DNA from: Pseudomonadota bacterium
GTDB taxonomy: Bacteria; Pseudomonadota; Gammaproteobacteria; GCA-001735895
DNA length: 41,619 nucleotides
NCBI GenBank assembly: GCA_022563685.1
Contig: JADFMY010000009.1
Location: forward strand, 1 to 41,619
Reading direction: 5' to 3'
This document shows, one piece after another, positions 22,251-25,341 of the stretch. The translations under genes and the position numbers were made by a program. The notes under the pieces are model-generated. The model was not told where the DNA came from, made no database searches, and saw only the letters and a program-made list of their open reading frames with translations. Positions within the stretch are counted from its first letter, which is position 1; every line of letters begins with the position of its first letter.

Positions 22251-22525
22251 TAGGGATAGTCTGATTTATTCAGGGGTTCCTTAGGGAAGGTCTGATTTAT
22301 TCAGGCCTTCCCGCAGTACTATGGACAGGTTTTTGCTCCTGCAAAACCTGCATTTCCCACAGAGCCTGCCCCGCGAGCATCGCGAGTGCTTTGGGTATCC
22401 TTGTGGGTCATGTGCTGCCAAAATCGATGCCGCTAAGGCATTGATTTTGTGAGACAAACGAAAATCACATTTTTCGTTTGTCGTCCTCTGAGAATTCACG
22501 GATGAATTATTCAGAGGTTCCTTAG
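22251..22525. repeat. Hairpin-rich composite repeat between carA and the HDAC gene
   Basis: The 450-base carA-HDAC gap holds a structured element rather than a gene. Copies of a 24-base direct repeat lie at 22251-22274 and 22282-22305 (two differences). The 19-base TTATTCAG(G/A)GGTTCCTTAG occurs at 22266-22284 and again at 22507-22525, so the element is bounded by same-orientation copies. Stem-loops are seen at 22285-22311 (11-bp stem), 22419-22449 (13-bp stem with one wobble) and 22453-22482 (12-bp perfect stem). A minus-strand frame of 92 codons crosses it but encodes these palindromes. It looks like a remnant of a mobile or dispersed repeat. Confidence 0.7.
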
Positions 22526-22563: not shown

Positions 22564-23646
22564 TTAGAATAAAGGATGCCTTTCTTTCAGTGCTCGAACA
22601 TCCCCTTCGGCTCTTAGGCTATCTTCAGGATAGAAGGCGATCGGATCTTCGATTTCCATCTCTGCGCCCAATAAACCTGCTGCAACAGCATAAGCACAAA
22701 GAGGTGCATAGCTTGGGTTATACCCTCCCTCCTGAGTCATCACCAGTTTTCCTCCACAGACTTCCTGCACGAGTTCGCGTAACTGACTGGCCATTCGATA
22801 GTAACCTGCCATCGTCACCATTTGCCGGCCATTTGGGTCAAACTGGTTGGCGTCCTGACCGTTAGCGAGAATAATTAAATCTGGATTAAACGCCTGAACC
22901 TTAGGCACAACACACTGTTCAAATACACTCGTGTAACAGATGTCCCCAGCTCCGAAGGGCAATGGCAGGTTGATATTGAATCCGGTGCCGGCAGCTATGC
23001 CGATTTCATCGACCTTGCCTGTTTCTGGATGGGAAGTACCCCAGGAACCGTGATCCATATGCATTGAAATAGTCAGAATATCCTCTCGATTATAAAATCC
23101 GGCCTGGGTTCCATTACCGTGGTGCACGTCCCAGTCTATAATCGCAATTTTTTTATAACCTTGCGCAATCGCCTCAAGTGCAGCTAATCCGATGCCATTA
23201 ATGAAACAGTAACCATCAGCCATGTTTGGCTGAGCATGGTGATTAGGCGGCCGACAGATACCATAGCTCATCAGGCCTTCGCCACCAAGTACGTATCTGA
23301 GTGCCGAGAGCGCAGCACCTGCTGCGAGACGCGCAACTTCCAGGCCACCTTTGGGCAAATAGGTCGATGGCGAGAGGTATTCTCCTGTTTTGTCGGCCTC
23401 TTTGAGGCGCTGCAGGTATTCCTCCGTATGAAACTCGAGTAACTCCTTATCAGTTGCGCTAACCGGGGTTCCCCAACTCAGTCGATTTCCCAATGGACCT
23501 CTTTTCAATACCGATACGGTGTTGATGATCCGATCGGCGCCTTCAGGCTGCTCGATTTGTTTTTCCAGCAGAGGCGATGGACAGGAGTCGAACATGCCAT
23601 CTGGAATTCGATGTAATAACATTCTTTCATCATAGAAAATTTTCAT
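22564..23646 (-). CDS. Class II histone-deacetylase-like amidohydrolase
   Basis: A zinc amidohydrolase of the HDAC/acetylpolyamine amidohydrolase superfamily, 360 residues; in bacteria these remove acetyl groups from small amines rather than histones. Key residues are in place: the catalytic histidine pair His136-His137 (RPPNHHAQP, with Asn where Gly is usual), zinc ligands Asp173 and His175 (DWDVHHGNGT) and Asp265 (NGQDANQFDP), and the transition-state tyrosine Tyr309 (EGGYN). It starts 23 bases after the M24 gene stop, on the same strand, so the pair is probably one operon. The substrate is not known from sequence. The neighbouring creatinase-like hydrolase suggests deacetylation of a ring-opening or amidine-hydrolysis product, by analogy with the ectoine pathway; this is inference. 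Confidence 0.88.
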   Translation of the reverse strand: MKIFYDERMLLHRIPDGMFDSCPSPLLEKQIEQPEGADRIINTVSVLKRGPLGNRLSWGTPVSATDKELLEFHTEEYLQRLKEADKTGEYLSPSTYLPKGGLEVARLAAGAALSALRYVLGGEGLMSYGICRPPNHHAQPNMADGYCFINGIGLAALEAIAQGYKKIAIIDWDVHHGNGTQAGFYNREDILTISMHMDHGSWGTSHPETGKVDEIGIAAGTGFNINLPLPFGAGDICYTSVFEQCVVPKVQAFNPDLIILANGQDANQFDPNGRQMVTMAGYYRMASQLRELVQEVCGGKLVMTQEGGYNPSYAPLCAYAVAAGLLGAEMEIEDPIAFYPEDSLRAEGDVRALKERHPLF

Positions 23647-23669
23647 TTTACGGAGCTTCCAAATCTTGG

Positions 23670-24911
23670 TCAGGCAAACAGGACCTGAAGTTCACGCGGC
23701 GTGCTGCAGGCAAATTGTGCGTGATTTTCCTGAAATAAAAGGGTTTCGATAGTGACTGATAAACCGGCGCTATTGGGAGCAAAGAAATTACATTCGTGGT
23801 TGACGACACTCATAGGTCCAAAGATATCAGTTTCCTTTGTCATGCTCAGGTCATAAATATAGGTTCCGACCCAATCCGGTGGGAAGGCAATACCCAGTTC
23901 ATAACCACCTGACCAATAACAGTCTTCAAAAATACCCGCTTCAACATAATAGTCACGTATCGATTCAAGTAACCTTTTGACCTTCAGTCCTGGTTTCAGC
24001 TGAGATTGAATAATTTCAAAAGCCTTTATCGATTTTCCGTGAAGAGCTGCAACCTCGGCGGGTGGCTCCCCTACCCAGAAACTGCGCGCAATATTGCAAT
24101 GGTAACGATTAAACACACCGCATAAATCGACGTTCACGCGCTCACCCATCTGTATCGGTTTTCGACTGGCAAGTGGGTGCAGGCAATTCGATCTAAACCC
24201 GGACATAACCGGTGGAAGAATAGCTGGAAATTCACCGCCCGCTCTGGCCATGGCCGATGTGAAGGCCGCAAACACTTCGAGTTCCATTACCCCGGGCTGG
24301 ATAGCGTCTCTTGCCGCGGCCATACCAATATCTGCAATTCGACCTGCCTCTACCAGGCAATCCATTTCCAGCGCAGATTTTTTCCTGCGAGCCTCACGAA
24401 CTATGTCCGTTCCATCAATTACTTTCATACCTGTCGATTCAAAGCCTTTTCGGTATAGCTTCGAGACGACAGGATTGGGTCGATAGTTATAGAGTTCCAG
24501 GCCAACTGAACCCTTTAGCCAGCCCGCCGCCTTAAGCTCCTTAAGAATGAACGAAATACCATCGCGGCGGGATTCGATCGGGAATATTCGAACGTCTTTC
24601 GATACAGTCCCGATAGCGACTAACATCGCCTCGCTGGGGGTTTCAAAATGGATAGTCGTGTCGTGGTTAACCTGCACGGCAATGCCGCTAGTCGGGGGGA
24701 AGTTTCGGCCACTTTGAGCCTGATACCACTCAGATTGAAAACCGCTCACATAGTACAAACTCTCAGGTGATGTCAGGAATAGCAATTCAATTCCAAAACC
24801 TTCCATGAGGCGCCTGATGCGATTAAGCCGCTCTTCATACTCTGCCTCCGGGAAAGGCACTTCTTTGTGTTGAGGCGCAACGGCCAGGGCTGCTTGAAAA
24901 TTTGCTTTCAT
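23670..24911 (-). CDS. Creatinase/ectoine-hydrolase-like M24-fold protein
   Basis: A pita-bread-fold (M24) hydrolase, 413 residues. The N-terminal creatinase domain spans about 25-165 (EERLNRIRRLMEGFGIELLFLTSPESLYYVSGF); the catalytic-fold domain is about 175-400. The conserved His245 (CLHPLASRK) and the first metal-ligand Asp262 are present. The second Asp is Asn273 (CNIARSF), and the third-ligand histidine region reads GGYELGIAFPPDW, without the usual His. That pattern resembles creatinase and the DoeA group rather than true metallo-aminopeptidases. The frame is open 126 codons further upstream, but that part overlaps the truncated yibQ in another frame and shows no family similarity, so I start at the ATG at 24911 (weak Shine-Dalgarno). 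Confidence 0.82.
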   Translation of the reverse strand: MKANFQAALAVAPQHKEVPFPEAEYEERLNRIRRLMEGFGIELLFLTSPESLYYVSGFQSEWYQAQSGRNFPPTSGIAVQVNHDTTIHFETPSEAMLVAIGTVSKDVRIFPIESRRDGISFILKELKAAGWLKGSVGLELYNYRPNPVVSKLYRKGFESTGMKVIDGTDIVREARRKKSALEMDCLVEAGRIADIGMAAARDAIQPGVMELEVFAAFTSAMARAGGEFPAILPPVMSGFRSNCLHPLASRKPIQMGERVNVDLCGVFNRYHCNIARSFWVGEPPAEVAALHGKSIKAFEIIQSQLKPGLKVKRLLESIRDYYVEAGIFEDCYWSGGYELGIAFPPDWVGTYIYDLSMTKETDIFGPMSVVNHECNFFAPNSAGLSVTIETLLFQENHAQFACSTPRELQVLFA

Positions 24912-24969
24912 CACGGTTACCAGTGTGCGGCAGGATCCAGCTATTAAAGCCTGGGAGCTACGGGTTAAT

Positions 24970-25341
24970 TTAATGCAAATGTGCCAGGTAATTTTCCCAG
25001 GTGTGACGTTTCCTCGAAACCATATTGCGCGTGAGCTGATTTTCATCCATCGAATCATGCAACGCGTTTGGTTCAGACGGCGCGGTTGGGATTGAGGACT
25101 GCGACGGAAGGTGCAGGATAATTTCCTTGCCTGGCTGATGTGCAAAGGCTGCCGGTTTTCGGCTATTGGAGGCACCTGGTATGATCGCGAAAGTATGGTC
25201 ACCTTCCAGCTTGATCGCCGCCTGACCCTGGTCGAGCGAATACCCGATATCGTCGATGACCAGGGACAGAACCGGGTGCTGACCACCAACTGCAGCAGTG
25301 GTAAAGCATAGAAATGCCGTGACCAGGTATACTTTCGTCAA
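24970..25341 (-). pseudogene. yibQ: Truncated divergent polysaccharide deacetylase (YibQ-like)
   Basis: A 123-codon frame starting with TTG seven bases after the ctpA stop. It has a signal peptide (VYLVTAFLCFTTAAVGG) and then the start of the divergent polysaccharide deacetylase domain: LSLVIDDIGYSLDQG, FAIIPGASNS, KEIILHLPSQS. Family members are normally about 250 residues or more. Here the match stops around MDENQLTRNMV, and the frame ends after SRKRHTWENYLAHLH. The missing C-terminal half was not found in any frame up to carA. The usual order in relatives is envC-ctpA-yibQ, so this is the old yibQ locus, cut at about 25010-25030. The residual protein is probably inactive. Confidence 0.8.

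Follow-up and report, generated by a model that had tools for sequence, protein, structure and literature searches.

A conserved pairing of an EutD-like M24 hydrolase with an HDAC-family deacylase as a candidate small-molecule catabolic module

A pair of adjacent genes, encoding an M24-family hydrolase and an HDAC-family zinc deacylase, was identified in a contig of 41,619 nucleotides (the window, i.e., the whole stretch of DNA analysed here) belonging to a 3.0 Mb gammaproteobacterial draft genome of 201 contigs. We consider it rather probable that the two enzymes catalyse successive reactions in a module for small-molecule catabolism, comparable to EutD-EutE with a different deacylase, by the mechanism proposed below; the pair probably acts in sequence on an imported small nitrogen compound. 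This reading is supported by the intact state of both genes, by the ligand loss and EutD-like predicted fold of the M24 protein, by the conserved pairing of the genes and their transfer as a unit, and by the other amide hydrolases found beside M24; the replacement of EutD Glu255 by Asp in the M24 protein counts against it. The original prediction of an M24 and HDAC-like pair on the same strand was confirmed, as both are intact minus-strand ORFs, separated by 23 bp, with Pfam domains PF00557 plus PF01321 and PF00850, respectively. The gene order on this strand is ctpA, yibQ, M24, HDAC, with carAB downstream (Table 1).

Table 1. Positions in the window of the M24-HDAC gene pair and of its immediate neighbours.
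Feature	Position	Strand	Remarks
M24-family hydrolase, creatinase/EutD-like fold	23670..24911	-	413 aa; binuclear metal site lost; PF00557+PF01321
HDAC-family zinc deacylase, HdaH-like, class II type	22564..23646	-	360 aa; catalytic residues intact; PF00850
yibQ (divergent polysaccharide deacetylase), ~140-residue internal deletion	24970..25341	-	PF04748 positions 1-81 of 212; compared with intact yibQ of relatives; neighbour, outside module
Dispersed repeat element copy, between HDAC gene and carA	22281..22525		~40 other places, same genome; neighbour, outside module

The same prediction had placed the pair where the 3′ half of yibQ should be, and this location had to be abandoned. A yibQ of near-full length (~265 residues) follows ctpA in 18 of the 19 other genus members examined. 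The window yibQ matches that of the closest relative over residues 1-107 and the last ~13, with ~140 residues absent between, and the C-terminal ends read RKRHTWENYLAHL in the window and RERDTWKNYLSYL in the closest relative. The deletion is in-frame, spans ~140 codons and leaves the gene its own C-terminal codons and stop codon, and the M24 ATG lies 58 bp past that stop. Since yibQ keeps its C-terminus and the pair starts beyond the stop codon, the pair has not taken the place of the gene's 3′ half, and an insertion of the pair into yibQ was ruled out by the internal deletion with its preserved C-terminus. Beyond the HDAC gene, a hairpin-rich repeat had been described; the repeat itself is present as a dispersed element, possibly a MITE, that occurs at ~40 other places in the genome in pieces of 115-245 bp that are up to 98% identical, and as to its hairpins, a single perfect one of 12 nt was detected in the window copy.

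The association of the two genes was then assessed by their co-occurrence. HDAC orthologs, delimited within the genus by at least 43% identity (paralogs lie at ~36%, with a clean gap between), were found in nine genus genomes, and all nine adjoin an M24 ortholog, eight divergently and the window copy co-directionally. A scan with the M24 alignment over 84,980 species' genomes returned 57 M24-family loci, spread over Gamma- and Alphaproteobacteria, Myxococcota, Actinomycetota, Bacillota and archaeal MAGs. An HDAC gene was next door in 18 of the 57, in three gene orders, namely M24 then HDAC (L128, L132, L133 and L135), divergent (11 loci) and HDAC then M24 (three Leucobacter loci); eight of these 18 seem to duplicate genus contigs that had been counted before. 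Outside the genus the pair was found in Alphaproteobacteria and in Leucobacter, so that the recurrence elsewhere that had been put forward as a check was observed in more than one phylum and in three arrangements. As a control, an M24 gene was present in 0 of 21 HDAC-paralog loci and an HDAC gene in 0 of 19 M24-paralog loci (0/40 in total, with flanks of up to ~1.5 kb a side). We regard it as very improbable that an M24 peptidase and a protein-lysine deacetylase are adjacent here by chance: neither protein falls in a characterised equivalog and each is also found without the other, as such a reading would have it, but the three gene orders, the spread over more than one phylum and two M24 subfamilies, the 0/40 of the controls, the joint transfer of the pair and the loss of metal ligands in M24 all argue against it.

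The M24 and HDAC distance matrices were strongly correlated (r 0.96; Mantel, 0 of 5000). A value of this size is expected from vertical descent alone, and the stronger point is therefore the placement in the trees, as both the M24 and the HDAC tree put the window pair with Alphaproteobacterial pairs, apart from its own genus. Because the two trees agree in this grouping, the window pair must have been acquired as a unit; base composition, inspected as a transfer signal, showed no clear step at the pair. Half of the support for the module comes from gene neighbourhood in draft MAGs. In addition, no recognised amide hydrolase stands beside M24 in more than half of the family's loci, the closest relative L127 among them; both points count against the module. 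In the open-access literature, a scope outside which most subscription journals lie, we found no earlier report of an M24-HDAC pairing. In one further locus (L157:1301-3317) the gene order is that of the HDAC-carrying relatives, and the HDAC gene is absent between the methyltransferase gene and M24.

The M24 protein had been predicted to keep Asp262 and His245 and to have lost the second Asp (as Asn273) and the ligand His, and this was confirmed. In an alignment of 55 family members, Asp262, His245 and Tyr337 were invariant, Asn273 was present in 52/55 and Glu373 in 54/55 members, and Tyr337 occupies the ligand-His position of the GHxxG motif. Two of the five canonical metal-ligand positions (D262, N273, Y337, E373 and a variable 389) are kept, i.e., Asp262 and Glu373; the ligand set is incomplete across the 55 members, and an M24 metallopeptidase of the Xaa-Pro type, with its D, D, H, E, E ligands, was rejected as a candidate. 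The best NCBIfam profiles were those of DoeA, with scores of 143 against a cut-off of 575 bits (NF038259) and 103 against 613 (TIGR02993); a DddP DMSP lyase was also rejected (31.9 bits against the NCBIfam cut-off of 600). An AlphaFold2 model of the protein (pLDDT 93) had EutD as its closest fold (6twj, Z 42.4, 371 aligned residues, 2.1 Å), followed by creatinase (1chm, Z 38.8) and then prolidases at Z of 37.4 or less. The expectation of an EutD/creatinase-like protein was thus borne out by the fold; in the tree the family formed a clade apart from DoeA, and the branches between it and the 20 DoeA-profile sequences carried support of 100/99 to 100/100. This separation was seen again when the tree was repeated with other rows. 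Asp262 aligns with Glu255 of the solved Halomonas EutD, and the equivalent position holds Glu in 20/20 DoeA rows versus Asp in 55/55 M24-family members; EutD Glu255 reportedly forms a covalent intermediate, in work attributed to Mais et al. in 2020. Judged by profile, tree and catalytic residue, the M24 proteins are a separate family and not members of DoeA. Further family invariants, W62, R144 and E338 as well as W333 (a gap or Ala in DoeA), differ from DoeA as well, suggesting that the substrate of the M24 family is not that of DoeA.

The nearest known system is EutD-EutE (DoeA-DoeB), in which a hydrolase and a deacetylase are juxtaposed and both needed (PMC8739950). Like it, the window pair joins an M24-fold hydrolase that lacks the metallopeptidase ligand set, and whose model is nearest EutD, to an adjacent zinc deacetylase. 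The analogy to ectoine breakdown, in which an M24-fold enzyme opens the ring and a deacetylase then acts, was upheld by EutD/DoeA as closest fold, by DoeA as best profile, though far below cut-off, and by the amide hydrolases that are the other neighbours of M24. Unlike in EutD-EutE, the window M24 belongs to a separate clade below the DoeA cut-offs and has Asp for Glu255, no ectoine regulator or TRAP importer was seen with the window pair, and the deacetylase has an HDAC fold (PF00850) and not that of EutE, whose family is AstE-like. The M24 protein also resembles creatinase in sharing an M24 fold without the full metal site, but is only ~19% identical to it, and no creatine pathway genes were seen nearby. 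A 2026 survey of ectoine catabolism (PMC13188858) counted only proteins with more than 55% identity to EutD, a threshold that would leave the window M24 family out.

We also weighed whether the pair simply degrades ectoine, with M24 as a diverged ectoine hydrolase and the HDAC in place of EutE. Besides the EutD fold, this would accord with the presence of EctC in many genus members and with an ectoine-synthase-like gene of the EctC family (L151:7471-7851) immediately upstream of M24 in one relative that has a second EctC elsewhere, which is the only direct ectoine-type hint. However, a custom HMM run over all M24-family loci found such a neighbour at one locus only, and EctC was not detected in the window genome. 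In addition, the distance of M24 from both DoeA cut-offs, its separate clade, the several DoeA-invariant positions that differ in it, and the presence of a true DoeA together with this M24 in one genome (G010) make plain ectoine degradation quite improbable.

The HDAC partner scored 262 bits against PF00850 (cut-off 27.9), and the prediction that it has all zinc ligands proved correct: 20 aligned sequences show no variation at Asp173, His175 and Asp265, at the His136/137 pair or at Tyr309. Its model (pLDDT 87) had the nearest solved folds at Z 46-47, these being HDAH of Bordetella/Alcaligenes, Pseudomonas HDAH, Klebsiella HdaH, dimethoate hydrolase and propanil hydrolase. The window HDAC has this fold, 32-35% identity and all catalytic residues in common with the HdaH-type enzymes (HDAH, DmhA and PrpH), but forms a subfamily of its own, set apart by the GQDANQFDPNGRQ motif and the M24 operon context. 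All M24-linked members have Asn272 after the DP motif (DPNG). In HDAC10, this position is held by the gatekeeper Glu (DPEG), and an HDAC10-type polyamine deacetylase was rejected as a candidate on its absence. Bacterial deacylases have been sorted into five clusters (PMC11532494), in which polyamine deacetylases occur in cluster 4 only, whereas cluster 1, which holds the HdaH-type enzymes, includes DmhA and PrpH in 1b as small-molecule amidohydrolases; by predicted fold, the window HDAC resembles the cluster 1 enzymes.

In parallel, the HDAC alignment alone was searched against 398 genomes of the phylum. Besides the window, it matched three genomes (6-7 Mb) of one genus, for which "Pseudomonas-like" is used here as a working label, and one genome of another class (G440), and an M24 gene lies directly upstream of HDAC in all four. 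In the Pseudomonas-like genus, M24 stands beside 16/16 close HDACs and is absent beside one 35%-identical HDAC. The operon there comprises a divergent LysR gene, a PotA-like ATPase, a binding protein, a pair of ORFs occupying the permease position (one of the two confirmed as BPD_transp_1), M24 and HDAC, the importer being of the PotABCD type. Its M24 shares only 28-29% identity with that of the window, carries Glu at position 262 and, in the tree, lies on the DoeA side, so that one HDAC subfamily is paired with two distinct M24 subfamilies. Against the module, five of six genomes of the G440 class that carry this HDAC subfamily have no M24 nearby. Two loci of another class (L256:7842-11538 and L257:3069-6767) hold a same-subfamily HDAC but no M24; the HDAC there belongs to another cluster of catabolic appearance, which includes an amidase-like ORF.

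The M24 gene was also found with other partners. Five genus members that lack HDAC, and two Rhodobacteraceae-type genomes, have it next to a DMFA2 large-subunit gene, which itself has a small-subunit-like neighbour; within the genus, each of the five close copies of the large-subunit gene adjoins M24. The encoded enzyme of ~740 aa, whose gene is absent from the window, is nearest among solved structures to N-acetyl-(R)-beta-phenylalanine acylase (8huy, E 1e-153) and to the large subunit of N,N-dimethylformamidase (DMFase; 6lvb, E 7e-153). In three Rhodospirillales-type loci M24 lies between amidase genes (PF01425), and in three distant members it is followed by a GNAT acetyltransferase (one cluster; family identified for one member). 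Many other M24 loci show none of these partners. As a tentative extension that could well hold, M24 hydrolases of the EutD/creatinase kind may supply one part of a mix-and-match catabolic module, the other part being recruited from three or more unrelated amide-hydrolase folds (HDAC, DMFase/N-acetyl-beta-amino-acid acylase and amidase), the HDAC version occurring as an operon with its own importer in the Pseudomonas-like genus.

With regard to the substrate, the Pseudomonas-like operon encodes a binding protein most similar to binders of GABA, polyamine, mannopine and agropine, the one beside the Leucobacter pair is most similar to PotD/PotF, and DMFase prefers small formamides (PMC7686228). 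Taken together, these likenesses and this preference point to an imported amine that carries an amide or amidine group, and an ectoine-like cyclic amidine or an N-acylated diamine or GABA-type compound fits best. In the mechanism that we propose, the M24 enzyme, devoid of a binuclear metal site, would hydrolyse a C-N bond in a cyclic amidine or a compound like it, its invariant Asp262 presumably standing in for EutD Glu255, and the zinc-dependent HDAC-fold enzyme would then strip an acyl group, probably acetyl, from the product. We infer the reaction order, the acyl group and the substrate. The same pathway could also run in another order and with other chemistry, such that the HDAC deacylates an imported N-acyl polyamine or GABA-type compound and M24 then hydrolyses the product at a creatinase-like guanidino or other C-N bond. 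The binding proteins, creatinase as second-nearest fold of M24, and an arginase-family gene two genes downstream of M24 in L163, with a gene at the matching place in L165, would agree with this order; we nevertheless hold it to be unlikely, as the nearest fold and profile are those of EutD, which acts ahead of its deacetylase, and the HDAC has DPNG and not the gatekeeper Glu of HDAC10.

A new pathway variant is plausible, being well supported for gene association and fold, with its chemistry inferred. Most bacterial HDAC-like enzymes lack assigned physiological substrates, and an operon with an importer and an EutD-like hydrolase makes such a role testable in culturable organisms, i.e., Leucobacter isolates and the Pseudomonas-like genus. 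The pairings suggest that hydrolase-deacylase bimodules of the EutD-EutE kind came together on more than one occasion, with unrelated deacylases. If the mix-and-match proposal is true, bacterial relatives of class-II HDACs would serve small-molecule catabolism and not protein deacetylation. For annotation, M24 proteins of this kind are easily named Xaa-Pro peptidases and their partners histone deacetylases. Two further arrangements were seen among the loci: a Rhodospirillaceae MAG carries a tandem run of four M24-family genes (L134:3976-9242), and in Leucobacter chromiisoli the HDAC-M24 pair has, upstream of it, a second, more distant HDAC gene (L170:4944-6107) that neighbours an MFS transporter.
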